Source of the DNA: Thalassotalea nanhaiensis
Lineage (GTDB): Bacteria; Pseudomonadota; Gammaproteobacteria; Enterobacterales; Alteromonadaceae
Length of the DNA: 64,000 bases
NCBI RefSeq assembly: GCF_031583575.1
Contig: NZ_CP134146.1
Coordinates: 3,038,001-3,102,000 of the forward strand
Direction: 5' to 3'
Shown: positions 49,509 through 64,000 of the stretch, in pieces
Layout: each line of letters starts with the position of its first letter
Numbering within the stretch: the first letter of the stretch is position 1
Translations under genes and position numbers: made by a program
The notes under the pieces: generated by a model
What the model was told of the DNA's origin: nothing
Seen by the model: the letters and a program-made list of their open reading frames with translations, nothing else
Databases searched by the model: none

Positions 49509-50189
49509 ATGTTAAAACTACACAATCTATCTAGAGTTTATCAAACCGACGAAGTTGAAACAGCAGCATTAAACAGCGTCAACATTGAAATTGAACAGGG
49601 CGAGTTTGTTGCCATTATGGGACCGTCTGGTTGCGGAAAATCAACATTATTAAATATTGTTGGCATGTTAGATAACCCGTCGACTGGCCAGTATATGTTT
49701 ATGGATGAAGACATTTCAGATTATAGCGAAGCACAACTTGCCGCTATTCGTAAGCATAACATCGGCTTTATCTTTCAAAACTTCAATTTAATTGAAGAAC
49801 TGTCAGTACAAGAAAATATCGAGTTGGCACTGCTTTATCACAACATCCCTGCAGCAGAGCGTAAAGAGCGTGTGGCTAAAGTAATGGACAAAGTAGGTAT
49901 TGCTCACAGAGCCAAACATATGCCAAGCCAATTATCTGGCGGACAACAACAGCGTGTTGCCGTAGCGCGTGCGGTGGTTGGCGATCAAGCGATGATCCTT
50001 GCCGATGAGCCAACAGGTAATTTAGACAGTGCCCATGGCCAAGAAGTTATGGAAATGCTGCAACAGTTGAACAAGGAAGGCACCACAATAGTAATGGTAA
50101 CGCATAGCCCGGCACATGCCGATTATGCTCGTCGTACTATTAATTTATTTGACGGTCATGTAGTGACTGAAAATGTAAGAGCCGCTTAA
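49509..50189 (+). CDS. ABC exporter ATP-binding protein (MacB/LolD type)
   Basis: A 226-residue ATPase of the LolD/MacB group. Walker [22 protein letters not shown]-loop FIFQNFNLIEELSVQEN, signature [15 protein letters not shown], Walker B MILADEPTGNLDS and H-loop VTHSPAHADYA are all present. The ATPase is a separate chain, unlike E. coli MacB, and must work with one or both of the FtsX-type permeases downstream. Confidence 0.95.
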   Translation: MLKLHNLSRVYQTDEVETAALNSVNIEIEQGEFVAIMGPSGCGKSTLLNIVGMLDNPSTGQYMFMDEDISDYSEAQLAAIRKHNIGFIFQNFNLIEELSVQENIELALLYHNIPAAERKERVAKVMDKVGIAHRAKHMPSQLSGGQQQRVAVARAVVGDQAMILADEPTGNLDSAHGQEVMEMLQQLNKEGTTIVMVTHSPAHADYARRTINLFDGHVVTENVRAA

Positions 50190-50237
50190 TCATATATTCA
50201 AGCTTAGTAAAATTTTTGCATCAACAAGGACACCATC

Positions 50238-52757
50238 ATGTTTCGTAATTACTTAATTACAGCGTGGCGTAACATCATCAAAAACGGCATGTTTTCGTTC
50301 ATTAATATCTTTGGCTTAGCCATTGGCTTAATGAGCTGTATTTTAATCATGTTATTTGTGCGTGAAGAGACGGGCTATGATCAATGGATCAAAGATAGCG
50401 ATCGATTAGTTAGGTTGCATACCGCATATTTAATGCCTGATAGACCGCCATTTTTAACCGTAAACTCTGCGGGCAAAATGATGGAGGCGCTGCGAGATTA
50501 TGCTAAAGGCGAAATTGAAGACGGTGTAAGAGTACTTAATTTTGGTACCACGGTTAGACAAAACAATGATGCATTTTCAGAAAGGATCAACTTAGTCGAC
50601 GGTAGCTTTTTTGATATTTTTGACCTGCCATTTGAACATGGCTCGAAAGTGAGTTCATTTAAAAAGCCTTATGATTTGGTTATTACTGAAGAGTTGGCGA
50701 TAAAGTATTTTGGTAAAACGGACGTTATTGGTGAAACGATGACCATTTGTTGCGTTGCTGATGATCCGACTACATTGCCAATTACCGGGGTGTTAAAAGA
50801 ATTACCCGGTGCTACTCACCTTGATTTGAATATGATTGTGTACTTACAACCTTCGTTGTTTGCCGACCAACCAAATATTTTAGATACCTGGAATAGTGTC
50901 AATGTAATGACCTATTTTAAGATGCACCAAGGCGTGAGCGTTGCTCAGTTGCAAGAGCGTATTGAGTATTGGATAAACAATGAAAGCCCTTTTGTGCAAA
51001 TGTTTAAAGAAAACATGGGTGAGCTACCAACCGATACCAAACTCACTGATATGGTAAAACACCGAGTAATGGCCGTTCCCGATTTGCATTTACAAGCAAG
51101 AGAGCATGCCGGAAGCATGGGAGATGTTACTCCTATGGGCGATTTAAGAATGATATACACCTTCATGATTGTTGCCGGCTTAATACTACTGATTGCTTGT
51201 ATAAACTTTATGAACTTGGCAACAGCAAGAGCGAGTCAACGAGCGAAAGAAGTCGCAATGCGCAAGGTAATGGGTGCGAGTCGTAGACAAGTTGCAACTC
51301 AGTTTTTAGGTGAGGCTATTGCCTTAGTACTTATTTCACTGTTGTTTGCTTTAGTCGCTGTTGAGGCTGCATTGCCTTTATACAATTCGGCGCTGGGTCG
51401 TGAGCTTGAGTTACGTTTATTTGAAGACGCTGATTTAATTTTATCACTGGTAGGTACATCTTTGCTGGTTGGCTTAGGTGCTGGCATTTACCCTTCGCTT
51501 TACTTATCACGCTATTTACCTGGACACATATTAAAATCTAGTAAGGGTGCTGAATCAACAAGTTCATCAACACTTCGTACTGCTTTAGTTGTGTTTCAAT
51601 TTGCCACATCTATTGCACTTATTATAAGTACGGCTGTGGTTTACGGACAAACGGTATACGCAAACTCTATGGATGTTGGTTATGAAACCCAAAACAAGCT
51701 GATATTAAATATTAGAAGCGCCGATAACTTAGAAAGTTTAAAACAAGAACTGTTGAACTTGCCAGAGATAAGCTCTGTGGTATTTTCATCTGAATCGCCA
51801 ACTCAAGACAATGAAAATAACAACGGTTTCAAATTATTAGGGCAAGAGCAAGAAGGCTCTAAGAGTCAAGGCGAGTTACTTAATTACCACAACATGGGCT
51901 ACGGATTTTTTGAAGCATACGATATTAAACCTGTTGCTGGCCGCCTATTTGATCAGGCCCATGCTACTGATGAAATAAAGCCCATAGCAGAAGACGAAAA
52001 CCGCATTGGCAACGCTAACGTAATATTAAACGAAACTGCGGTTAAAAAGTTTGGCTTTACCAGCCCACAACAAGCGATAGGTAAAACACTTGAAACCGAT
52101 GTATTTAGAGCTGGTAAGTATCACCTAACGATTATTGGCGTGATACCAGATGTTTATTTCCGTTCAATAAAGTTTGGTGTAAGAGCTAGTGCTTACATGT
52201 TGAACCCTGAACGTTTTCGTATGGCAAGCTTATCGTTTAACACTAATGATGTCTCAAGCCTGCTACCTAAAATAGAAACAATTTGGAAAGCCAATGTGCC
52301 TATGCAGCCTATTAACTTACAATTTTTAAGTGAAATGATGAAAGCGCAATACGCTCAAGAAATGGCGCAAGCGAAATTATTTTCTGCCTTCTCAATATTA
52401 GCAATACTGGTAGCTTGTTTAGGATTATATGGTTTGGCCGCTTTTACAGCAGAGCGAAGAACAAAAGAAATTGGCATACGCAAAATAATGGGTGCCAGAG
52501 TAAGAGACATCGTATCACTACTGATTTGGCAATTTTCTAAGCCAGTTATCATTGCCATGTTATTCGCTTGGCCATTGTCAGTGTACTTAATGCTGCAATG
52601 GTTAGAGGCTTTCCCATATCGAATTAATACCTATTGGTTATTACCTATTTGCTTAATTGCAGGAGGTAGCGCCTTATTAATTGCTTGGTTAACCGTTGGT
52701 GGCAATGCAGCGAAAGTTGCCCGTTCAAACCCAGTTAACGCACTGCGTTACGAGTAA
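50238..52757 (+). CDS. FtsX/MacB-type ABC permease 1
   Basis: An 839-residue inner-membrane permease with duplicated halves. The N-terminal helix (about 20-42, FINIFGLAIGLMSCILIMLF) and a MacB-like periplasmic core (about 45-270) lead to an FtsX domain (about 285-420, with the cytoplasmic KEVAMRKVMGASRRQV loop). A second helix and core (about 435-690) and a second FtsX domain (about 705-830, KEIGIRKIMGARVRDI) follow; the end is RSNPVNALRYE. Such eight-helix permeases export hydrophobic or peptide compounds or mechanically drive adaptors; the substrate is unknown. Confidence 0.9.
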   Translation: MFRNYLITAWRNIIKNGMFSFINIFGLAIGLMSCILIMLFVREETGYDQWIKDSDRLVRLHTAYLMPDRPPFLTVNSAGKMMEALRDYAKGEIEDGVRVLNFGTTVRQNNDAFSERINLVDGSFFDIFDLPFEHGSKVSSFKKPYDLVITEELAIKYFGKTDVIGETMTICCVADDPTTLPITGVLKELPGATHLDLNMIVYLQPSLFADQPNILDTWNSVNVMTYFKMHQGVSVAQLQERIEYWINNESPFVQMFKENMGELPTDTKLTDMVKHRVMAVPDLHLQAREHAGSMGDVTPMGDLRMIYTFMIVAGLILLIACINFMNLATARASQRAKEVAMRKVMGASRRQVATQFLGEAIALVLISLLFALVAVEAALPLYNSALGRELELRLFEDADLILSLVGTSLLVGLGAGIYPSLYLSRYLPGHILKSSKGAESTSSSTLRTALVVFQFATSIALIISTAVVYGQTVYANSMDVGYETQNKLILNIRSADNLESLKQELLNLPEISSVVFSSESPTQDNENNNGFKLLGQEQEGSKSQGELLNYHNMGYGFFEAYDIKPVAGRLFDQAHATDEIKPIAEDENRIGNANVILNETAVKKFGFTSPQQAIGKTLETDVFRAGKYHLTIIGVIPDVYFRSIKFGVRASAYMLNPERFRMASLSFNTNDVSSLLPKIETIWKANVPMQPINLQFLSEMMKAQYAQEMAQAKLFSAFSILAILVACLGLYGLAAFTAERRTKEIGIRKIMGARVRDIVSLLIWQFSKPVIIAMLFAWPLSVYLMLQWLEAFPYRINTYWLLPICLIAGGSALLIAWLTVGGNAAKVARSNPVNALRYE

Positions 52758-52815
52758 CTAAGCCGAAATAAATAAGAATTAAACCGAATTAAATACAAAA
52801 AATAAAGGAACACTT

Positions 52816-55248
52816 ATGTTTCAAAATTATATAAAAATAGCGATACGTGCATTAGCAAAAAATAAGCTTTATGCCGCGATAAATGTAATAGGTTTAGCCA
52901 TTGGTCTTACGGTTTATTTATTCGGAGGCATTATTGCCGAATACGAAAAAAATCATGACACCATGTATGAAAACCATCAACGTACATACACCGTTGGTTC
53001 AATCATGTCTCCTACTGCAAACATTGGTGTTAAAGAGCTCGACAATACCTATTCAGCAATGGGGCCATTAATTGGCGCCGAGCTTGAAGAATTGGATGCG
53101 TTTGCTCGCACAATTAGACGTGGTTACCTGTTAACCATTGGCGATAATCATTTTCATGAAACCGTTAAGTTTACTGACAAAGAGTTATTGGATATTTTCA
53201 ATTTCAATTATATTGCTGGTGATGCCAAGGCTCTTGTAGACCCTAAAGGTTTAGTATTAACTCGCGACACAGCGATGAAGTTTTTTGGCCGAACAGATGT
53301 TGTTGGTGAAACGGTATTATTGAATCACGAATTCGATTTACACGTTACCGCAGTAATTGAAGAAATCCCGCAAAATAGTCACTTTAATTCGTCGTTTATC
53401 AGCGGCGCAGTAACTATGTTCGCGCCATTAGAAGCGCTTAACCGTATTGATGATTGGGATTTAGCCGGTAATTGGAACAACATAAGTGGTGGTAACCAGG
53501 TTTACGTGATGACTAAAGAGGTTATGCCGCTAGATGAGCTTAATCTTAAGTTGAATGCCATTTTTGACCGTCATGTAGAGCCTGAAATGAAAGAAAAATT
53601 TATGGCTTCTTTAAACGCTCACCACCTTAAAGATACTAATGTTGCCATTTGGGATATGGTTGGCATGCCAGTTATTGAAAGTATTCAAATATTAGGCGTA
53701 TTGGTGCTTATTATCGCAATAGTTAATTACACGAACCTTGCTACCGCACAAAGTATTGGCAGAGCCAAAGAAGTTGGTTTGCGTAAAACATTAGGGGCAA
53801 AACGTCGTCAGCTCATGATGCAGTTTTTGACCGAGAGTATGACCATAGCCTTTATATCAATGATTTTGGCGATTGTATTTTTGGAGCTGTTGGTACCTCA
53901 ATTTAACAACGCCACCGATAAAGTCGTAATGTTAGATTATATTGGACTACTTCCATGGTTACTTACGACGACAGTAATCGTTGGCCTTATTGCCGGTGCT
54001 TACCCAAGTTATTTGATCACCAAAACTACTCCAATTGATGCATTACGAGATCTAAACGGCAAGGGCGCAAAAGGTAGCTTTTTCCGCTCGTTAATGATCG
54101 GCACGCAATTTATGCTGTCTATTTTTATGCTCGCTTTAGTAATGATAGTATTTTTTCAAAATGAAAAAGTACAAGAAAGCAGTAATATTTACCCAAAAGA
54201 TGAAGTGTTAGTACTTGAAAAAATGTCGGTTGAATCGATACGTAAAAGAGAAAACACCCTGCGCAATGAATTATTGCAATTACCTGATATAAGCAGTGTG
54301 ACCTTTACAGCTCAAGTACCATTTGAACAAAGCAACAGTCAACGGGAAGTGAGTAGAGTTAAAGGAGATGAAAACAGTGATGTTCAAGCAAACATAAATG
54401 AAGTTGATCATGACTTTTTAAAAACCTTTGACGTACCGTTGGTTGCAGGCAGAGACTTCTCAAGAGATGTGCTTGGTGATGAACGACGCGATATTGAAAA
54501 CCGTAGAGCCAATGTTATTGTCAACGTGTTATTAACCAAAAAGCTTGGTTACACAACCCCAGAAGAAGCTGTAGGGGAAACATTTTGGGGTGAGCAAAGT
54601 GAAGAAGTAGAATCATTTCAATACGATATTGTCGGTGTAATGGAAGATCAAAATCTATTAGGCTTGCATAATAAAATGAAAGCGTGGATTTTTATTAACA
54701 ACCCCGTTCCACATCGCTATGGTGCAATTCGAATTCGAAAAGGCGCTTCTGCCAATATAATTTCAGAAATAGAAGAAGCATGGAAACGAGTATTACCCGA
54801 CTACCCTATTCAGCATAAGTTTTTGGATGGCTTATTCGCCCAGATTTATCAAATTTATAAAACCATGAATGGCGTGTTAGCGGGGTTTGCAGGTATCGCA
54901 TTATTGCTGGCATTAATCGGCCTATTTGGTCTGGCTGCATTCATGGCACGCTCTCGTACCAAAGAAATCGGCATTCGCAAAGTTATGGGTGCTTCACTAC
55001 CACAAATTGTTAAATTGCTATTGTGGCAGTTTTCAAAGCCGGTAATGTGGGCGATTATTTTTGCCCTCCCATTGGCTTACTTTACGTCAAACATGTATTT
55101 GCAATTTTTTGCCGAGCGAATCGACTTACAAATACCAATTATTTTAATGTCAGGCATTATCGCGGTAGGTTTAGCTTGGATTGTAATTGCATTGCACGCC
55201 TTTAAAGTGGCAAGGGCAAATCCAATATCGGCACTGCGTTACGAATAA
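52816..55248 (+). CDS. FtsX/MacB-type ABC permease 2
   Basis: An 810-residue permease with the same two-half plan as its neighbour: KNKLYAAINVIGLAIGLTVY helix, core, FtsX with KEVGLRKTLGAKRRQL, second core, FtsX with KEIGIRKVMGASLPQI, end RANPISALRYE. The two permeases have clearly related ends but differ in length and core sequence, so a heterodimer is likely. Last gene of the plus-strand operon; a terminator follows that overlaps the convergent RND gene. Confidence 0.9.
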   Translation: MFQNYIKIAIRALAKNKLYAAINVIGLAIGLTVYLFGGIIAEYEKNHDTMYENHQRTYTVGSIMSPTANIGVKELDNTYSAMGPLIGAELEELDAFARTIRRGYLLTIGDNHFHETVKFTDKELLDIFNFNYIAGDAKALVDPKGLVLTRDTAMKFFGRTDVVGETVLLNHEFDLHVTAVIEEIPQNSHFNSSFISGAVTMFAPLEALNRIDDWDLAGNWNNISGGNQVYVMTKEVMPLDELNLKLNAIFDRHVEPEMKEKFMASLNAHHLKDTNVAIWDMVGMPVIESIQILGVLVLIIAIVNYTNLATAQSIGRAKEVGLRKTLGAKRRQLMMQFLTESMTIAFISMILAIVFLELLVPQFNNATDKVVMLDYIGLLPWLLTTTVIVGLIAGAYPSYLITKTTPIDALRDLNGKGAKGSFFRSLMIGTQFMLSIFMLALVMIVFFQNEKVQESSNIYPKDEVLVLEKMSVESIRKRENTLRNELLQLPDISSVTFTAQVPFEQSNSQREVSRVKGDENSDVQANINEVDHDFLKTFDVPLVAGRDFSRDVLGDERRDIENRRANVIVNVLLTKKLGYTTPEEAVGETFWGEQSEEVESFQYDIVGVMEDQNLLGLHNKMKAWIFINNPVPHRYGAIRIRKGASANIISEIEEAWKRVLPDYPIQHKFLDGLFAQIYQIYKTMNGVLAGFAGIALLLALIGLFGLAAFMARSRTKEIGIRKVMGASLPQIVKLLLWQFSKPVMWAIIFALPLAYFTSNMYLQFFAERIDLQIPIILMSGIIAVGLAWIVIALHAFKVARANPISALRYE

Positions 55249-55278: not shown

Positions 55279-55316
55279 AAAGGGACTTCACATAATGTTA
55301 TGTGCAGTCCCTTTTT
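55279..55316. terminator. Shared terminator overlapping the 3' end of the RND gene
   Basis: AAAGGGACT-T-CACATA-ATGT-TATGTG-C-AGTCCCTTT with TTTTT to the right: a 15-bp stem with one mismatch. It terminates the plus-strand exporter operon, but its right arm is the final codons and stop (55288-55290) of the convergent RND gene, so coding and terminator functions overlap. Confidence 0.88.
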
Positions 55317-57603
55317 CATTACTTGAGGGTGTTAATGCTAAAGAATAGAGCGCAGGTAATAGCACTATATCTGCCATTAACGCGGCAACAAACGTAACAC
55401 TTGCAATGACTCCCATATCATTAATTGCAATCAGTTGATTACTCGTCATAGATAAAAACCCTGCAACTAATGCTAGTGTCGTATACATAACACCTTTACC
55501 TGCATGGTCTAGCATGGATTTAATTTGCAGTTGCGCTGACAAGCCTTGTTTCGCTAAAAGCCTTAGTTTTGTGAGTAAATGAAAGCTGTTATCTACCACA
55601 ATACCAATAGCGATAGCTAACACAACCGCGGTGCCAATCCTTACCTGTATGCCAGTGAATGCCATAAAGGCAAGAGGAATTAAAATAGGTAAAAAATTTA
55701 TAATTACGGCGATTATTATTAACCGTTTTTCTTTTAAAGCGACCATAATAATGGGAATTATAATGATGAAAGCTGCGCATAAAGTGATGATCATATCCAT
55801 CAATATTTGATCCATCCCTTGTTGGGCTAACCACCACTGCCCTACTATATCCACCTTAAACTCTCTGCCTAAATACTGCTTAGCTAAAGATTCTATCTGT
55901 TCTTTATACAGCATTGCTTGCTTAGAGCCGATGTCTGAAATACGAACTTGCACAGCAATTACTGAATTATTGTCATTAATTAATTCAGCAAGGTTTAATT
56001 GCTCCGCAGGTAGTTGGTGTAATTGCTTTATATAATATTGATATTGGGGTTGCTCGTAATGTTGAGGAAAAAAATCAAAAATAGAACGTACTGAATCGGT
56101 ATGTTTTAATGCTTTAATTGCCGACACAAAAGTGCTGATTTTATCGGCTGAGTGTTTAGTTAATATCTCACTTTCATCAACTCTGCTGACGCGAATATCG
56201 GGCCCCAAAAAACCACCAAACTTTTGCTCTAATAATGTTTGCGCAATACGTACAGAATGCTGTTTAGATAACTCTTCATTAAATTTTTGCTCTATGTTTA
56301 TAAAGTTAAAACTAAGTAATGAAACCACAACAACGCCAGCGGTAAACAAGAGAACTCGGTATGGTTTAAGCGATGCGAAGTTAGCCAACTTATACATTAT
56401 TACCACTGCGGTTTTGGTCAGATAATTTTCAACAACCTGAGGTTTCAAGGCAATATTTCTCAGTAAAAATGGAATTAACAATTGGTTTGCCAGCCAAAGC
56501 TGAATAACTGCAACAGCAACTACCAGTCCAAAATCTTGGATGATAATAAGCTTCGCCATAAGCAAAGAAAAGAACCCGGCAGAGGTAGAGATAGACGTGT
56601 AAAAGCATGCTGGCGATGTACTGAACAGCATTTGTTCAATCGCTTCTTCGGTATTTTTATTTTTTGAATATATCCGCAGAAAAGCAATGACCATATGAAT
56701 CGCATCGGCAACACCTATAACCAGTATAATCGCAGGAACCACACTGTTGATTATGGTAACAGGTATATTAAACCACCCCATAACACTAAGGCAGGAAACA
56801 ATAACCAAAAACACCGGAGTGAGCACTACAACTAATACGCGCCATTGTTTAAGTACTAAATAGATCAATAACGCTACGAATAATGTCGTTAAGGTAGTTG
56901 CAATTAATTGGTCAATTAAAATCTGATCAGCATAAGTTGCTTCAACGATTGACACGCCAGAGCGATACACTTGGGTATCGGCAGGTACGTAGCTATTAAT
57001 GTAAGCATCTATTGTGTCAATAATAGCCCGTCGTTGCTGTAAATCAGTTAACGGAGGAATAAGCTTAACGGCTAACAGGGTATACTTTTGATCTTTTGAT
57101 AACACCAAACGGTATGCTTCAACATTCTCAGCAATTTGCTGCAAATGTTTGTCCAATTTTGGTTGCTCATTATAAATTTCAGCTGGAAACTGCGGTATTA
57201 GTTTTAAGGTTGGTGGGTCAACCAATGATGGCACCGCTGTTAAGTTTGCCAAAGTGGTTAAGCTAACCACTTGCGATACACCATTAACGCTTTGTATTTG
57301 TGACGACAACTCGTTTAGGCTTGTCACAAAACTTGGCTGTAAGATATGCTGATTCTGCAAAATAAAAATAACATAACTACCTGAAGCCTGACCAAATGTT
57401 TCCTCAAACTGCTGGGTTATATGATATTGCGAACTTTGCGTCAGAAAAAAAGGTTTGAATGAGAAATCATAGCGAAGCTGAAAAACACCAAGGCTTAATG
57501 CGCACCAAACAATAAAACACGGCAGTAAAGTTAACAGCTGCTTTTGGCCAATCAGCTTCTGCAAGTTTAGATACTTAAGATGAACCTTAGTATAGAAATC
57601 CAT
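55288..57603 (-). CDS. RND/MMPL-family exporter of the biosynthetic operon
   Basis: A 771-residue inner-membrane transporter. A first helix (about 28-48), a large periplasmic loop (about 50-220), five clustered helices (about 222-400, with GVADAIHMVIAFLRIY containing the transport-type Asp), a helix near 415, a second loop (about 440-635) and a final helix cluster (about 635-760, with AIGIVVDNSFHLLTKLRLL). This is the SSD/MMPL plan rather than AcrB. The ATG at 57601-57603 (MDFYTKVHL) is chosen; a TTG two codons upstream is the other option. Seven bases follow the carrier-protein stop, so it is the last gene of the operon and probably exports the product. Confidence 0.88.
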   Translation of the reverse strand: MDFYTKVHLKYLNLQKLIGQKQLLTLLPCFIVWCALSLGVFQLRYDFSFKPFFLTQSSQYHITQQFEETFGQASGSYVIFILQNQHILQPSFVTSLNELSSQIQSVNGVSQVVSLTTLANLTAVPSLVDPPTLKLIPQFPAEIYNEQPKLDKHLQQIAENVEAYRLVLSKDQKYTLLAVKLIPPLTDLQQRRAIIDTIDAYINSYVPADTQVYRSGVSIVEATYADQILIDQLIATTLTTLFVALLIYLVLKQWRVLVVVLTPVFLVIVSCLSVMGWFNIPVTIINSVVPAIILVIGVADAIHMVIAFLRIYSKNKNTEEAIEQMLFSTSPACFYTSISTSAGFFSLLMAKLIIIQDFGLVVAVAVIQLWLANQLLIPFLLRNIALKPQVVENYLTKTAVVIMYKLANFASLKPYRVLLFTAGVVVVSLLSFNFINIEQKFNEELSKQHSVRIAQTLLEQKFGGFLGPDIRVSRVDESEILTKHSADKISTFVSAIKALKHTDSVRSIFDFFPQHYEQPQYQYYIKQLHQLPAEQLNLAELINDNNSVIAVQVRISDIGSKQAMLYKEQIESLAKQYLGREFKVDIVGQWWLAQQGMDQILMDMIITLCAAFIIIIPIIMVALKEKRLIIIAVIINFLPILIPLAFMAFTGIQVRIGTAVVLAIAIGIVVDNSFHLLTKLRLLAKQGLSAQLQIKSMLDHAGKGVMYTTLALVAGFLSMTSNQLIAINDMGVIASVTFVAALMADIVLLPALYSLALTPSSNEKGTAHNIM

Positions 57604-57610
57604 ACCCAAA

Positions 57611-57835
57611 TTAATCTATGTTAAACAGTTCCTGCAATTGACCAACATTTTCAACACTTTTCAATTCTATTTGGCCAAAACTGATCCCGTACAACTCTTG
57701 CATTTCGATGATCAGCTCAACTAAAGTGAATGAATTATCGACTAAATCCAGCATTTTAGTTTTTGCGTTAATTTGCTCTTTCGGACATGCCAAAATATTA
57801 GCCATGTCTGAAAAGAATTGTTTTTCATCTACCAT
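57611..57835 (-). CDS. Acyl carrier protein (carrier 2)
   Basis: A 74-residue four-helix carrier protein. The phosphopantetheine attachment Ser is S35 in LVDNSFTLVELIIEMQE, the DS-hydrophobic pattern followed by the recognition helix. Acidic surface as usual. It lies between the ferritin-like protein and the RND exporter. The fatty acid acpP is not expected here, so this is pathway-specific. Together with carrier 1 it implies two carrier-bound intermediates or a hand-over. Confidence 0.85.
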   Translation of the reverse strand: MVDEKQFFSDMANILACPKEQINAKTKMLDLVDNSFTLVELIIEMQELYGISFGQIELKSVENVGQLQELFNID

Positions 57836-57859
57836 TTTGTCCCCCTTACCGGTACGGGC

Positions 57860-58417
57860 CTAAGCCGTAACCATCATGGTTTCGATTCTGTCCTGATACT
57901 CATCTGTTACTTTTAGGTAAGCATCTTTATCTGCCTGCATAAAACGTTTAATTGTTGACTGTACTTCATTAACGCCATATTCAGCTTCCATATCTTTTAG
58001 GGCTTTACGTACCCACTTTAAGTGCCAAACTTCTTCACCAATAATAGTATCTAATGTTTGTAGTACAATTTTTGGTTGTGTAATTATTTTTCTATGATGA
58101 GAATATTGCTCAAAAACCCTTAACTCAAACACATGGGTAATGGCCAAAACTTCCATTAAATTTGAAGGCAAACCCGCGGCCTTTAAATAATAATCCTGAT
58201 AACTCCTTTCAAGTTTTATTGGCTGCATGTTTAATTGCTTTAAACAATTCCCCCAATACCTTGAATGCTGCGCTTCATCAGCAAATTGTTGAGTCATGTT
58301 GTGTTGAATAATACCGGGTTTCATACTGCGCGCCAGCTGGCCAAAAAACAGCGCACCGGATATTTCAGATGTCCGATAAAAACTCAATAACCAGCGTATA
58401 TTTTCGTTAATATTCAT
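57860..58417 (-). CDS. Ferritin-like diiron protein
   Basis: A 185-residue all-helical protein from ATG 58415-58417, preceded by AAAGGAG. Iron-ligand motifs fit a ferritin-like four-helix bundle: Glu in FYRTSEISGALFFGQLA, ExxH in FADEAQHSRYW, Glu in HVFELRVFEQYSHH and ExxH in IIGEEVWHLKWV. The family beyond this is unclear; it recalls MiaE/PhaF-like or ferritin-like oxidases of unknown substrate. Its ATG overlaps the stop of the PPTase gene (ATGA). A second diiron enzyme next to an AurF-like one suggests two oxidations. Confidence 0.75.
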   Translation of the reverse strand: MNINENIRWLLSFYRTSEISGALFFGQLARSMKPGIIQHNMTQQFADEAQHSRYWGNCLKQLNMQPIKLERSYQDYYLKAAGLPSNLMEVLAITHVFELRVFEQYSHHRKIITQPKIVLQTLDTIIGEEVWHLKWVRKALKDMEAEYGVNEVQSTIKRFMQADKDAYLKVTDEYQDRIETMMVTA

Positions 58418-59031
58418 ATTGAACTCCTTTGACAAAATGCGACACATAACGCACCAACACCATTAACAATACATCTATAGCGTAATTGCCAATGTGGATG
58501 GTTAACAACGGTAGCTACACCAGCACTTGCACTGGGTTTATCTAATTTAAAATCAATAAGTCCTAATTTTTCATTGTTCATTGTGGCTTTAAATAATGCT
58601 TCTTTAACGGTCCAAAGTCGGACAAACTCCCGATCAAACTCTTTACTGCATAAAGAGGATAACCAACGCTGCTCTGCGTTATCTAAAAACCACTCTGCCA
58701 TTTTTGGCTTAACCTTGTGCCAAGTTTCAAAATCAATCCCTACTCCGCAAACATCACTTATTGCAACGGCAATAGCTGAGCCATTACTGTGGGTTAAGGA
58801 GTAAGATGAATTAGGAAAACTTAATTGTTCTGTATCTAAGCTTCCCCCTCTTTTTTGCAATAATGTTTTTAATGCATTACGCCCTTTTAACCAGTCGGTT
58901 TTACGTGACTGTGTCGTAAAAGAGTCATATTGCTTTCTTTCATTGATAGTCAATTTTGACAGTGCTAACGGTTGCGTGCACATTTCGACTGTCACGTCTT
59001 TACCTGACCATTGGCTTAGCAATTTATTCAT
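58414..59031 (-). CDS. 4'-phosphopantetheinyl transferase (Sfp/EntD type)
   Basis: A 205-residue enzyme that converts apo carrier proteins to the holo form with coenzyme A. The signature residues are present: GVGIDFETW (Mg-binding Asp/Glu) and RLWTVKEALFKA (W-x-x-K-E-A-x-x-K). SLTHSNGSAIAVAIS is the conserved substrate segment. A pathway-dedicated PPTase in the operon is consistent with the two unusual carriers. The start overlaps the reductase stop by eight bases. Confidence 0.92.
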   Translation of the reverse strand: MNKLLSQWSGKDVTVEMCTQPLALSKLTINERKQYDSFTTQSRKTDWLKGRNALKTLLQKRGGSLDTEQLSFPNSSYSLTHSNGSAIAVAISDVCGVGIDFETWHKVKPKMAEWFLDNAEQRWLSSLCSKEFDREFVRLWTVKEALFKATMNNEKLGLIDFKLDKPSASAGVATVVNHPHWQLRYRCIVNGVGALCVAFCQRSSI

Positions 59032-60157
59032 CGACCTTCACTCCTTGCTTGGCAATAGCGATACTTTTGTTGGGGCTGATTGCTTTGCCCCATTTATTGT
59101 TGATTAAGTATGAGCAAATCTTCGGGAGCATGTCTTTCACTTTAAAATTAAGATCTACTGTAGTCTGTGACTGAGCTCTTGAGTTTTTGACTATTTTGTT
59201 TGTATATAATTGCTGACTAAAAGGCGCCATAACAGCAAGCGCTTGGCCTAATATACTGCCTAAAGATTGTGTGCCATCAATAAGCTTTTGAAATGTTGGC
59301 CAGCTGGCAAATCGGGGTTTTAATATTCTTTTCTGCTTAAATTCATCGTATAAGTTGAACTGGCAATACACTTCATCAATGAGGTTTCCTAATGCCAAAG
59401 AGTGTTCATCATCAATTGATGAATGGAAAAAGCCACGGCTTTCATTAAGTAGTAGCTGACCACATAATTGTGCAGACGTATCTCTTGTAGTTAAATAGAT
59501 TTTTGTCGACTCTTCACCAGGCATTACGGCCAGTAGGCCATAAAAAAGTAACCGCAAGGTTTGATGAAATACATTATATTGATGTACTTCGCCTAAATCA
59601 TTATCGGCCACTATGGTAGCCACTCGCACAATTTGCCAAGGCAAAGCAGCAAATTCGTCTAGGAGTACCTGTTCGGCGTTAAACTTGGACCATTCATAAT
59701 GATTGGCAAATGTCGGCGTTGGGCTAATAGGCTGCTCGTTAATAACCTTGGTATCCAAGCCGGCGACATATAATGTGCTGATCAGTGAAACACATTTAAG
59801 TTGTTGGCAACGCTGAGCAAACTGTAAAAGCTTGCGTGTGCCCAACACATTTACCTGATAAGCATCTTCTTTTTCGACGGCAAAGTTTGTCAGCGCAGCA
59901 CTGTGAATAATATGAGTGATCTCTGCTGAGTTTACATCCGCAAATACCGTGTCATCAGTAAGATCGCCATAATAAAAATGGCAACGCGAATTGTTTAAAA
60001 GAGTTGCCAACCGTTGCTTTTTAAGCTCGATTGATTGTTGAGACGACGCCTTCACCCATAAGCACAATTGTAAATTGCTGTTAGCAAGTAAATAGCGGGC
60101 AATTGCATGACCAAGATAGCCATCAGCGCCGGTAATTAACACCATACCTTTACTCAT
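59024..60157 (-). CDS. NAD(P)-dependent thioester-reductase-like protein
   Basis: A 377-residue extended SDR of the NAD-binding-4 / thioester reductase type. The Rossmann motif TGADGYLGHAIARYL (about residues 6-20), the HSAALTNF loop and the catalytic Y-x-x-x-K in HYEWSKFNAEQVL are present, with IVRVATIVADN after it. The last 130 residues are a helical region without recognised motifs. It is expected to reduce a carrier-bound thioester to an aldehyde or alcohol. Ribosome site GGGAGAG is before ATG 60155-60157; the open frame extends 19 codons further but inside the ligase gene. Overlaps that gene by eight bases. Confidence 0.8.
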   Translation of the reverse strand: MSKGMVLITGADGYLGHAIARYLLANSNLQLCLWVKASSQQSIELKKQRLATLLNNSRCHFYYGDLTDDTVFADVNSAEITHIIHSAALTNFAVEKEDAYQVNVLGTRKLLQFAQRCQQLKCVSLISTLYVAGLDTKVINEQPISPTPTFANHYEWSKFNAEQVLLDEFAALPWQIVRVATIVADNDLGEVHQYNVFHQTLRLLFYGLLAVMPGEESTKIYLTTRDTSAQLCGQLLLNESRGFFHSSIDDEHSLALGNLIDEVYCQFNLYDEFKQKRILKPRFASWPTFQKLIDGTQSLGSILGQALAVMAPFSQQLYTNKIVKNSRAQSQTTVDLNFKVKDMLPKICSYLINNKWGKAISPNKSIAIAKQGVKVDE

Positions 60158-61058
60158 AACTCTCTCCCAACGGCCAAGAAGCGATGTTTTTGCCATGTTG
60201 GTAAAATAAAGCAAACAACCAACGCTCTAACCCGAATGCAACGCAAGCAGACTTTGCCGGTTGCTCTCGGTAAGAAATATTGTAGCAATCGGCAAAAAAG
60301 CTACGGTGATCATTTATTGATGCAATGGCTAAACCACTCTCTAAACTTAATTCTTGCTTCACGGGCTCAACAATTTGGCTTATGGCTTTAGTGTCATGGC
60401 AAGGATCAAAAAATGGGTCTGTAGCCTGTCGCCAAGTAGCTTTAATACCGAGTTCATCAACAAGTGAAAGGATAAATGCTTTCGCACTTTCCAGAAAATC
60501 GCTTATCCCCTCAGAGTCAGAAAAACAGACAACCTCACGCATAGTAAAGTTCCACTGACGCTGCAGTGGCGCATAATATTCTTCACGGCGATGACACATA
60601 CATTTGGTCGTTAGATATGTGGTGTCAGCAATATTATTATCTTTAAAGCGATGATAAAAATGATAACAAGCAGCAGGTGTTAAGACTTGTTTAGTCGCTT
60701 GCCAGTCGACATTGTCTGTCACTGCAGTTTTACTGCCTTGTTTAAACTGATGTAGATTGTCTACTTCAAGTTTTGGCGTATGGGCAAACGTGGCCAAATG
60801 AGGAAATGATGCACAGTACCCCGTTGGTGCAAGGTCTTGCACTGAAATGAAATTTGGAAATAAAAACTCAGTTGCATTGAGTTTCTCAGCCCACTGTAAA
60901 ATACGCGCATCTAACAGAGTTAAACATTGTAATAAATCACCTGAAATAGCAGCATGACCATCCATATGCCACTGTAATCCGTGCCATTGAAATTCACGCC
61001 AATTCGATTCATCTAATTGCTCAATACGATTAATACCAGTTCCCATTTCAGCACACAT
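60150..61058 (-). CDS. Aminoacyl-tRNA-synthetase-like amino acid:carrier-protein ligase
   Basis: A 302-residue class II synthetase-like protein lacking a tRNA-binding domain. It matches the atypical seryl-tRNA-synthetase homologues that load amino acids onto carrier proteins. The likely zinc ligands are in place: C131 (TPAACYHFY), E175 (NFTMREVVC) and C272 (SACVAFGLERW). CHRREEYYAPLQRQW is motif 2 and FGLERWLFALF motif 3. Known members load Gly, Ala or Ser; which residue cannot be told here. Start at ATG 61056-61058, six bases after GGAGG; it overlaps the carrier-1 gene, its expected partner, by 11 bases. Confidence 0.85.
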   Translation of the reverse strand: MCAEMGTGINRIEQLDESNWREFQWHGLQWHMDGHAAISGDLLQCLTLLDARILQWAEKLNATEFLFPNFISVQDLAPTGYCASFPHLATFAHTPKLEVDNLHQFKQGSKTAVTDNVDWQATKQVLTPAACYHFYHRFKDNNIADTTYLTTKCMCHRREEYYAPLQRQWNFTMREVVCFSDSEGISDFLESAKAFILSLVDELGIKATWRQATDPFFDPCHDTKAISQIVEPVKQELSLESGLAIASINDHRSFFADCYNISYREQPAKSACVAFGLERWLFALFYQHGKNIASWPLGESYE

Positions 61059-61311
61059 CACAAGCCTCCAAGGTATAAAATGTATTTGCTATTATCGAAA
61101 TGGTTTTAAAACACCCTGGCGTTAGCTGTTCAATAACAATTCTGTTTCCGCTGCTTTGTTCAAGTAATAGTAATAGGTCAAGTACTTGAAATGACGTTAT
61201 CAGCCGATTTTCAAGCAAAGGCGTTGCATTACTTATGCTATTAAAATCAGTACTTGAATTAACGCGCTGCAAACATTGACGAACTAATTTTTCTGCTTCT
61301 AGTTTATTCAT
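61048..61311 (-). CDS. Carrier protein 1, partner of the amino acid ligase
   Basis: An 87-residue carrier protein. The attachment serine is S40 in LLENRLITSFQVLDLLLLLE. The preceding residue is Thr rather than the usual Asp, which is a deviation from DSL that PPTase must tolerate. Helix-loop-helix layout and length fit aminoacyl carrier proteins (AMP-ligase partner type). ATG at 61309-61311 overlaps the oxygenase stop (ATGA), and its own 3' end overlaps the ligase gene. It is likely the acceptor loaded by the ligase. Confidence 0.75.
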   Translation of the reverse strand: MNKLEAEKLVRQCLQRVNSSTDFNSISNATPLLENRLITSFQVLDLLLLLEQSSGNRIVIEQLTPGCFKTISIIANTFYTLEACDVC

Positions 61312-62165
61312 GCCACATCTCCAAGTAATTGTTGATGGTAAAACCATGCTAACCGTTTGTGCTGTAGTTTATCTCTGTGTTGCTTAGCTGGTTCGCTATT
61401 AAATACAGTCAGACTTAAACTGGCACAATCGGTTAAACCTGCGTCAAAATATGCATCAGGACAATAAAATTGCTTCCAGGTATTATGCAAAAAGCCATTC
61501 AGGTGTTGGTTTATCTGCTGCAATTTATGTTCATCAATACGATCATGCAACTCAGTTAACCAATACTTTAAAAAGCCTAAGCCAAAAGCTAAATGGCGCG
61601 ACTCTTCTAGATGATGTAAACGGTTAATTTCACTAACAATACCAACAACCTTACTATCACCAGCGATTTGACGGTTATATTCATCAACGATGGTTTCAAA
61701 GATATAAATTCGAGCAAACAGTAAAAGCAGCTCTATCTCATCATCTCGGGGAGCACCTATTTCCAACGCGCGTAATGGATAAATTTTATTGGCATACTGA
61801 ATACAAAAGCGCGAAAAATACATCATATGTTTCGCTTCTTCTTCAATAAAGTGCAGTAAATATTCTGACATCTCTAACGATGGAAAATTGAATAAATGAC
61901 TGCTAACGGCGTTTATCAAATATTTCTCACCGTGCACATTTAAACTGAAAAAGTTTATTGCTTCATAAAAGCTTAATTTCTTTTTCTGCGCATCAGTAAA
62001 CTCATACCATTGCTCGCTGCCATATATTGAGATTAACTCAGGTTTGAAGCACCATTGGTTTTTCGGTAACACCGAAGGCCAGCTAAGGGCGTCAGGGGTT
62101 AAAAACTGCTGCTCTGACATTTGCGTTAACTTTTTCAGTTGGGTAGTAAACTTTGCAGTATTCAT
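61308..62165 (-). CDS. AurF-like diiron N-oxygenase
   Basis: A 285-residue helical protein. The iron-binding pattern is visible as FIEEEAKHMMYFSRF, FETIVDEYNRQ and HHLEESRHLAFG, the E...ExxH / E...ExxH plan of the AurF family, which oxidises amines to hydroxylamines or nitro groups and in other members hydroxylates carbon. YEAINFFSLNVHGEKYL is in the family N-terminal helix. Starts at ATG 62163-62165 (MNTAKFTTQL); the frame above it lies within the KAS III gene. Overlaps that gene by four bases. Probably acts on a carrier-bound amino acid. Confidence 0.75.
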   Translation of the reverse strand: MNTAKFTTQLKKLTQMSEQQFLTPDALSWPSVLPKNQWCFKPELISIYGSEQWYEFTDAQKKKLSFYEAINFFSLNVHGEKYLINAVSSHLFNFPSLEMSEYLLHFIEEEAKHMMYFSRFCIQYANKIYPLRALEIGAPRDDEIELLLLFARIYIFETIVDEYNRQIAGDSKVVGIVSEINRLHHLEESRHLAFGLGFLKYWLTELHDRIDEHKLQQINQHLNGFLHNTWKQFYCPDAYFDAGLTDCASLSLTVFNSEPAKQHRDKLQHKRLAWFYHQQLLGDVA

Positions 62166-63112
62166 ACTTTTTCTACCACCATACATTGCCAATTACTGCC
62201 AAACCCTGCCATAAACAGTAATATCAGTTGGCCTTTTTTTATTTTTCCACTGTCATCGAGTTTTGATAGATTAATGATATTGTCAGCGCTGATCACATGG
62301 CCTACGTGCGCTAATGACTCAAACCACGCTTTGTCCTCATCAATGCCTAAAAGGGCGGCAAGAATTGACCAAGCTTTAGCATTAGTATTTTGCGGAATAA
62401 CCCAGTCGATAGCGTCAATGGGTTTATTTATTTGCATCAGGGTTTCGTTAATTAACTGATGTATATATGAGAAGTAACTGCCCACGGTTTCATCATCACT
62501 TGCACATGCCTGTGCACCGTTGGTAATGTGCTTAACCGTTAAAATTCGAAATCCTTGTGGTTTTCTCGACACTAAACAAGCAGCACCACCATCTGAAATT
62601 AGATTGTACGCTTGCTCGTAATATGCATTCTCAGGGAAGTTATCAGCGCTAATGCATAGCACGTTGTTAATATTTTCTTCCGCTGCTAAAAAGTTTTTAG
62701 CAATGCGAATACTACCTAACATACAAGTACATGCTTGTTGGGTTAAACCAATAACAAAAGCGTTCTCCATGCCAAATTTCACTTGCAGTTTACTGGCAGG
62801 AAACACCATTAAATCTTTTACATCTCGACTCTGTTCAAACACTTCATGTTGATGACAGTTAGCATTTTGCGGTAGACAATTTGCGTAAATAATACAGTCA
62901 ACGTCAGCCGTATTTATTTTACTATCTTGCAATGCTTTACATGCCAGTTGATATGCGTTTTCATCAGCAGAGCAAACAAAGTGCTGTTCAAATCCAGACG
63001 CTTGCAAAGCTTGAGCTGAAGAAACTAATACACCGGCCTTTTCAGCCTCACGAATTGTTCTTAGCTCAGAGCCCAATGAAGTCCCCAATTGTTGTAAGTA
63101 GGTATCAGTCAT
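62162..63112 (-). CDS. KAS III (FabH-like) condensing or acyl-transfer enzyme with altered active site
   Basis: A 316-residue thiolase-fold protein. The nucleophile is C128 in LTQQACTCMLGS, and VLCISADNF and GFGSNW complete the fold. The FabH histidine motif PHQAN reads PQNTN here (His to Gln) and the FabH GNTSAA loop reads GHVISADN (Asn to His). So the canonical Cys-His-Asn triad is absent, but a histidine appears at the third position. This suggests a family with acyl transfer or special condensation. ATG 63110-63112 is preceded by AGAGG. Nine bases separate it from the methyltransferase. Confidence 0.8.
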   Translation of the reverse strand: MTDTYLQQLGTSLGSELRTIREAEKAGVLVSSAQALQASGFEQHFVCSADENAYQLACKALQDSKINTADVDCIIYANCLPQNANCHQHEVFEQSRDVKDLMVFPASKLQVKFGMENAFVIGLTQQACTCMLGSIRIAKNFLAAEENINNVLCISADNFPENAYYEQAYNLISDGGAACLVSRKPQGFRILTVKHITNGAQACASDDETVGSYFSYIHQLINETLMQINKPIDAIDWVIPQNTNAKAWSILAALLGIDEDKAWFESLAHVGHVISADNIINLSKLDDSGKIKKGQLILLFMAGFGSNWQCMVVEKV

Positions 63113-63121
63113 AGTTACCTC

Positions 63122-63688
63122 TTATGGCAACTTAGCAGGGATAAAACGGCCAGTAGTGCTCATATACCCTTGGTACTTGCTACCAAATACTTGAGTTAAT
63201 CGCGTCTCTTCACGTTTAGCTGTTAGTGTTAGGACAATACAGCTATAAACGCAGCACCCTAAAATCAAATAGTGTGGAAATAACAGTAAGCTTGCACAAA
63301 ATGCTAAGAAAAATGCAGAATAAAACGGATGTCTTATTCTTTTATATGGTCCCCAAGTGACCAACTCTTGTGGCTGATCATTTACTTGATGCCATAACGC
63401 CGGTTTAAACTCATGCGCATGTATTGTGCTTGCGATAAGACCGATTGAAGCAATACTAAATAATGCCGCGCAGATTTGAGCTAATTCAAACCACAGTTGT
63501 GAGGGATATTTTAAGCTCGTTAACATGCCAACAAAACCCAAAATTAACACCACAACCACAACCAAAAACGGTAATGCCGTGCAACACCATTTTAGATTAA
63601 ACGAACCATCACGACGGAATATGATTAACGGTAAGCTGGCAATTAAAGCGAAATTGCTCATTACCAAAGTGAAAGATACGGTATCCAT
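63122..63688 (-). CDS. ICMT/PEMT-type membrane methyltransferase
   Basis: A 188-residue protein with about five membrane helices. The C-terminal half carries the isoprenylcysteine/phospholipid methyltransferase pattern: WGPYKRIRHPFYSAF (RHPxY), EETRLTQVFGSKYQGYMSTT and GRFIP. In E. coli-like bacteria such proteins methylate lipids or unknown substrates; in this operon a methylation of a hydrophobic intermediate or product at the membrane is a fair guess. Its ATG shares one base with the upstream ligase stop (TAATG). Confidence 0.85.
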   Translation of the reverse strand: MDTVSFTLVMSNFALIASLPLIIFRRDGSFNLKWCCTALPFLVVVVVLILGFVGMLTSLKYPSQLWFELAQICAALFSIASIGLIASTIHAHEFKPALWHQVNDQPQELVTWGPYKRIRHPFYSAFFLAFCASLLLFPHYLILGCCVYSCIVLTLTAKREETRLTQVFGSKYQGYMSTTGRFIPAKLP

Positions 63689-64000
63689 TATTCGACCTCC
63701 TTCTGTTGAGCGTGTTGTTGCACAATTTGTTCAACCTGTATGCGTTTAATTTTTCTTGTAGTTGAACGAGGTAAATCTTGCGAAAGTACAATAACGATAT
63801 TAGGTCGCTTCCAACGTGCAAGCGTCTCACTTTTTTGTTCAATAATGTCTGTGAGTCTGTGCTCAAGTGCATGTTTGTTTTGATTTAGCTCTGCAATTAA
63901 TTCATCACTTGCCACAACAACAGCACACACTTGTAACCGGCCTTTATTGATTCCTTTATTGGCCGTTAAAGCGACCACACAACCCTCTTTAATATCAGGA
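63688..64000 (-). CDS. AMP-forming acyl/aryl ligase, C-terminal end (runs off right edge)
   Basis: About 104 codons remain. They match the C-terminal swinging domain of adenylate-forming ligases: the hinge segment DIKEGCVVAL, LARWKRPNIVIVLSQDLPRS and the catalytic Lys stretch TTRKIKR. The N-terminal adenylation core lies outside the window, so substrate choice cannot be read. It shares its last base with the methyltransferase start codon, so it is part of the same operon. It would activate a carboxylic acid as acyl-AMP for CoA or one of the carriers. Confidence 0.8.
   Translation of the reverse strand, partial: PDIKEGCVVALTANKGINKGRLQVCAVVVASDELIAELNQNKHALEHRLTDIIEQKSETLARWKRPNIVIVLSQDLPRSTTRKIKRIQVEQIVQQHAQQKEVE

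Follow-up and report, generated by a model that had tools for sequence, protein, structure and literature searches.

Near its end, a 64,000-nucleotide stretch of the Thalassotalea nanhaiensis genome (contig NZ_CP134146.1, positions 3,038,001 to 3,102,000; here called the window) carries an operon of 11 minus-strand genes, running from window position 55288 to the equivalent of position 65445. We propose, with a probability of about 0.55, that this operon encodes a complete pathway, operating on stand-alone carrier proteins, for an exported, nitrogen-oxidised amino-acid lipid. In transcribed order, the genes encode an AMP ligase, an ICMT/PEMT-type membrane methyltransferase (ICMT), a KAS III-like enzyme (KAS III), an AurF-family diiron oxygenase (AurF), a putative aminoacyl carrier protein (ACP1), a class-II aminoacyl-tRNA synthetase (aaRS)-like amino acid:carrier protein ligase (AACL), a thioester reductase-like short-chain dehydrogenase/reductase (TR), a 4'-phosphopantetheinyl transferase (PPTase), a ferritin-like diiron protein (FER), a second carrier protein (ACP2) and an MMPL/RND (HAE3-like) exporter (MMPL). 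The gene set, its conservation and co-occurrence across genomes, and the conservation of catalytic residues were observed directly. The original prediction, made from the window alone, had described at least ten closely spaced minus-strand genes; there are 11, with overlaps or gaps of 1–24 bases between them (55288–64000), and Pfam and NCBIfam matches recovered all the gene families that it had named.

The gene set is a conserved pathway and not a chance run. Of the 16 other genomes of the genus, two have orthologues of all 11 genes in unchanged order (66–97% identity), at the same chromosomal place and between the same neighbours; beyond these two congeners, no match was found among 397 genomes of the family. 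One genome of a different family (L017) holds the full set in another gene order at 25–45% identity, and its pump gene is followed by one for a LolA-like protein. Because the 11 orthologues recur both in congeners with the same order and in a different family with another, the run of genes must reflect more than coincidence. When an alignment of the KAS III protein was searched against a collection covering roughly 85,000 species, 31 further loci emerged, distributed over Actinomycetota, Pseudomonadota, Acidobacteriota, Omnitrophota, Melainabacteria, Myxococcota and Bdellovibrionota, while a single-protein AurF query against the same collection gave no match. AurF accompanies KAS III at 30 of these 31 loci and TR at 28. 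When the loci of the two congeners and L017 are added, the gene profiles built from these same loci place AurF at 33 of 34 loci, ACP1 at 32, TR at 31, and AACL and the AMP ligase at 29 each; a first-pass tblastn with the window and L017 genes agrees. Most of the missing genes coincide with contig ends, and in GC-rich loci gene presence was called by homology search, not by open reading frame calling. The AurF sequences of the cluster form one supported clade in a midpoint-rooted tree, apart from five AurF proteins of other contexts. Conservation of the set across seven phyla gives good support to the view, already put forward in the original prediction, that the genes make up one biosynthetic operon. 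Occurrence in 2 of the 398 sampled genomes of the phylum, the window's own included, suggests that the cluster is rare.

The smallest versions of the cluster reveal its core. Four Catellatospora loci and one from Allorhizocola contain only KAS III, AurF, ACP1, AACL and TR of the set, which identifies these five genes as the core and FER, ACP2, ICMT, PPTase, the AMP ligase and the lipid-type exporter as additions to it. In all five minimal clusters, the core is followed by a conserved DUF3419 protein, which we take to be BtaA-like, and a GNAT protein (L040:13960-16139).

Only the 3' end of the AMP ligase gene (63688–64000) lies within the window, and rightward extension, suggested earlier as a way to find the operon start, completed it. 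The full protein has 585 residues (L002:10688-12445; genome C1:3101688-3103445), matches the PRK06187 long-chain fatty acid ligase subfamily (E 4.5e-95), and its start ATG is preceded by AGGTGA. The operon starts with this gene; upstream lie about 540 bases and then a divergent gene for a secreted hydrolase, and this sets the number of operon genes at 11. No promoter consensus was found upstream of the operon, and a terminator-like match within the last gene, MMPL, was set aside as chance.

The ligase AACL (60150–61061) matches NF005479, "amino acid--[ACP] ligase", with an E-value of 1.8e-38, although its score of 132 bits is below the equivalog cut-off of 357. Its best match among solved structures is Bll0957 (3mey; E 8e-24). 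Residues C132, E176 and C273 are conserved across loci and correspond to what we take, by comparison with archaeal seryl-tRNA synthetase and the Bradyrhizobium ligase, to be the zinc-site positions. Three Ketobacter-like clusters have no AACL, and all three carry a nearby AlmE-like stand-alone adenylation domain in its apparent place (L030:17958-19517, L031:18581-20122 and L035:15518-17089). The one such domain that was compared with TIGR01733 scored over that cut-off, and the nearest solved relatives of this domain are LgrA, best in its module-2 stretch, and 4oxi. We assume LgrA module 2 to be a glycine module. The 4oxi structure is AlmE with glycyl-AMP, whose pocket for glycine owes its shape to Asp247, Leu248 and Cys316 (PMC11253843). 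By motif registration, the same Asp, Leu and Cys are found in the Ketobacter-type domains. Since both the relatives and the pocket residues of the replacement domain are those of AlmE, glycine is the likely amino acid, and non-orthologous replacement of this kind supports the role of AACL as well as its substrate. The substrate of AACL is thus most likely a small amino acid, glycine, and the loading of an amino acid onto a carrier, as originally predicted, is supported by the relatives of the ligase and by its replacement in this one clade.

AurF (61308–62165) is a clear member of its Pfam family (PF11583; E 2.7e-25, 89.5 bits against a cut-off of 29.6); with ATG 62165 taken as its start, it overlaps the KAS III gene by 4 bases. 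Residues E89, E119, H122, E166, H193, E197 and H200 are invariant and fit E..ExxH..E..HxxxExxH, presumably the diiron ligand pattern of AurF. A profile search against solved AurF gave only ~16 bits, and the substrate of the operon protein is likely to be a carrier-bound alkyl amine. The second diiron protein, FER (57860–58417; Pfam Rubrerythrin, E 2.7e-5), conserves E19, E49, H52, E99, E130 and H133 across loci. Its model (pLDDT 89) is ferritin-like, with 3ez0, PaaA/PaaC and aldehyde deformylating oxygenase as the nearest folds, none below E 0.001. Assignment of FER as an aldehyde deformylating oxygenase was rejected on these grounds, the best match being to a protein of unknown function.

The KAS III enzyme (62162–63112; Pfam ACP_syn_III_C, E 4e-16) had been predicted to be altered. 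The alignment confirms this and shows the change to be a family trait: Cys128 is present in 35 of 35 rows, Gln241 occupies the position of FabH His244 in all 35, and His272 that of FabH Asn274 in 34, the remaining locus being a truncated contig. Both residues that FabH uses for decarboxylative condensation are thereby absent. The structural model (pLDDT 89) has the FabH fold, with a FabH structure matched at E 1.7e-23; two acyltransferases, ChlB3 and CerJ, are among its fold matches as well. Without the decarboxylation residues, normal use of malonyl-ACP is unlikely, and we favour acyl transfer or a non-decarboxylating condensation as the probable activity. Three points go beyond the original prediction: the gene set is widespread, glycine is the likely amino acid, and the residue changes in KAS III do not vary.

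Both carrier proteins have weak matches of their own (E 0.006 and 0.06), but ACP1 (61048–61311) has an invariant Ser40 in 20 of 20 orthologues and ACP2 (57611–57835), probably the fatty-acyl carrier, an invariant Ser35 in 23 of 23. ACP1 lies between AurF and AACL wherever both were found adjacent. The PPTase (58414–59031) matches Pfam ACPS at E 1.5e-12. TR (59024–60157; NAD_binding_4, E 3e-32) scores 88 bits against TIGR01746, below the cut-off of 213, and conserves the NAD(P)-binding motif TGxxGxxG (T9/G10/G13/G16) together with the Ser/Thr-Tyr-Lys residues T128, Y154 and K158. In ICMT (63122–63688; Pfam PEMT, E 4e-7; ICMT, E 3e-6), an RHP motif at 119–121, Y123, E160 and E161 are conserved. 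The MMPL exporter (55288–57609; Pfam MMPL, E 3.3e-24; TIGR00921, E 4e-44) has orthologues in the two congeners (L015 and L016, 74–75%) and in L017. Across loci the exporters differ, being MMPL, MMPL with a LolA-like protein, or a LolD-like ABC transporter with a LolA-like protein; that they are of lipid type throughout fits a hydrophobic product.

From these families we infer every reaction of the following scheme, the identity of the amino acid, and the order of the fifth to seventh steps. PPTase would arm ACP1 and ACP2. AACL would then activate glycine, or less probably another small amino acid, and load it onto ACP1, where AurF would oxidise the amino group of the tethered amino acid. In a fourth step, the AMP ligase would load a fatty acid onto ACP2. 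KAS III may take over this acyl chain on Cys128 and join it, without decarboxylation, to the oxidised aminoacyl-ACP1, forming either a C–C bond at a nitro-activated alpha carbon or an amide or hydroxamate. TR would release the product as an aldehyde or alcohol, FER would oxidise and ICMT methylate it, and finally the MMPL pump would export it. The interpretation given in the original prediction is thus strengthened in part: operon unity and amino-acid loading have gained support, while nitrogen oxidation, acylation, reductive release, methylation and export are still deduced from protein families and active-site conservation.

Several points weigh against this scheme. The product and the activities are predictions from the genes. 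FER, ICMT, ACP2 and the AMP ligase are missing from the minimal clusters and so are not needed for the core, and the AMP ligase may make acyl-CoA instead of loading ACP2. Glycine is deduced from the replacement ligase of one clade and not from AACL, and Bradyrhizobium-type ligases use Gly or Ala. Relatives of AurF also make oximes or N-hydroxyls, or oxidise other nitrogens. Some contigs from metagenome-assembled genomes among the loci may be misbinned.

Within the same overall pathway, the chief alternative chemistry is one in which AurF only N-hydroxylates glycyl-ACP1 and KAS III serves as an N- or O-acyltransferase, comparable to CerJ and ChlB3. This would yield an N-acyl-N-hydroxy-glycyl thioester for reduction by TR and O-methylation by ICMT. 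The loss of the decarboxylation residues and the fold matches to ChlB3 and CerJ speak for this route, as does the precedent of ham, which ends in an acylated N-oxide (PMC11659414); yet the fold matches to FabH are equal or better, and the comparison with CerJ and ChlB3 covered the fold. We consider it possible, if somewhat unlikely. A bolder variant is more doubtful still: AurF would oxidise glycyl-ACP1 to nitroacetyl-ACP1, and KAS III would use the acidic alpha carbon for a non-decarboxylating Claisen condensation with the fatty acyl chain. If true, this route would amount to a nitro-Claisen reaction in biology and a new way of making C–C bonds. Its products, in many bacterial phyla, would be 2-nitro-3-oxo lipids, which reduction would turn into sphingoid-like nitro lipids.

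Two further explanations were weighed. AurF and FER could together make an N-hydroxy or N–N unit from the tethered amino acid, leading to a diazeniumdiolate or pyrazine-N-oxide signal like those of ham and pvf, with an aldehyde released by TR that cyclises or dimerises and an acyl chain added as in fragin. An aminoacyl carrier, an AurF-type oxygenase, a reductase and a second diiron protein are common to both systems, but FER is ferritin-like and not heme-oxygenase-like as reported for HamA, and the nonribosomal peptide synthetase (NRPS), cupin, cyclase and aminotransferase of ham have no counterpart in the operon, making such a signal an improbable product. Less probable still is ordinary fatty-acid tailoring of the aryl-polyene or alkylresorcinol type, in which AurF would hydroxylate carbon and the amino acid would be a minor decoration. 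AMP ligases, ACPs, a PPTase and MMPL pumps are common in such pathways too, and not all AurF-family proteins are N-oxygenases. However, the operon contains no KAS II, chain-length factor, dehydratase or ketoreductase, and its invariant core of AurF, ACP1, AACL, TR and KAS III is centred on an amino acid.

The grouping of AurF, a carrier protein and an aaRS-like ligase also occurs in other settings. In three plasmid lineages it lies beside an FMN protein annotated as a nitronate monooxygenase, constituting a second, smaller pathway type (Tistrella mobilis pTM2, L061:11947-15232; Streptomyces NBC_01431, L062:12013-14961; Agrobacterium vitis F2/5, L065:9747-12750). These FMN oxidoreductases match at the superfamily level only (FabK, 88–121 bits against a cut-off of 453), so that the hint they give of a nitro-acyl carrier made by the triplet is weak. 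On a plasmid of Streptomyces NBC_00335 (L066:704-12711), the triplet is accompanied by ketosynthases, two AMP-binding proteins and pabB. Streptomyces clavuligerus plasmids (L064:11947-14131) carry an aaRS-like ligase, a carrier protein and a PPTase with no AurF gene nearby, close to genes for a condensation domain and a phytanoyl-CoA dioxygenase, and in a stretch of a Nostoc plasmid (L063:5828-10888) an AurF-family protein accompanies an adenylation-domain protein, with no aaRS-like ligase annotated. In the window itself, a LolD/MacB-like ABC ATPase and two large FtsX-type permeases lie directly past the 3' end of the operon in convergent orientation (49509–55248); at least one of the two permeases stays beside the operon in both congeners.

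The original prediction held the operon to be undescribed. No described cluster with this gene set was found in the open-access literature and plasmid records, with subscription literature, MIBiG and antiSMASH outside this scope, and no open-access paper pairing an aaRS-like carrier ligase with AurF was found; "undescribed" hence means not found, not proven. As a compact pathway found in Streptomyces and gammaproteobacteria as well as in myxobacteria and uncultured phyla, it would represent a new class of natural-product cluster, in which an aaRS-like ligase is combined with AurF chemistry and with a KAS III whose active site has been rewritten. Rule-based genome mining that looks for NRPS or modular polyketide synthase (PKS) genes may overlook such clusters, since the core has neither.

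Some known systems were considered and set aside. The nocuolin (noc) cluster shares fatty acyl-AMP ligases, ACPs, distantly AurF-like proteins and an acyl-ACP reductase, but is PKS/NRPS-based, has no described aaRS-like ligase and differs in gene set and order (PMC5333925). For the isonitrile fatty acids amycomicin and aerocyanidin, an open-access paper describes P450-based steps and no matching gene set. In the dob diazo cluster, the AurF-like Dob3 works on a hydrazone from lysine–glycine enzymes that are missing here.

The closest described logic is that of ham, pvf and mgo, which lead to fragin and valdiazen. In ham, valine is held on an NRPS that includes a reductase domain and is oxidised there by the AurF-like HamC (PMC11659414; PMC11705231), and HamA is reported to be a heme-oxygenase-like diiron protein (PMC11705231). 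In common with these systems, the operon would tether an amino acid to a carrier, oxidise its nitrogen with an AurF-like enzyme and release it by a reductase; it also encodes a second diiron protein close by. In the operon, however, the NRPS (HamD) is split into AACL, a free ACP1 and a free TR; KAS III, a fatty acid ligase, ICMT and the MMPL pump are added, FER is ferritin-like, and the cupin, cyclase, aminotransferase and condensation domain are absent. AACL is homologous to the ligase of the Bradyrhizobium Bll0957 system, with the zinc-site positions kept and a free carrier protein adjacent, but it falls far below the equivalog cut-off and is set within a putative pathway of oxidation, condensation and reduction. 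With the arylamine N-oxygenases AurF and CmlI, and with Dob3, the operon AurF shares its Pfam family and diiron ligand pattern, although its substrate is likely a carrier-bound alkyl amine. KAS III has the thiolase fold and active-site Cys of FabH, CerJ and ChlB3, but differs from FabH by His-to-Gln and Asn-to-His changes that are invariant in its family. Finally, AlmEFG glycylation and Dlt D-alanylation likewise place a small amino acid on a free carrier by means of a stand-alone ligase, and the Ketobacter-type ligase is AlmE-like; the ligase of the window is of another fold, and loading would here be followed by oxidation and reduction instead of transfer to an envelope polymer.

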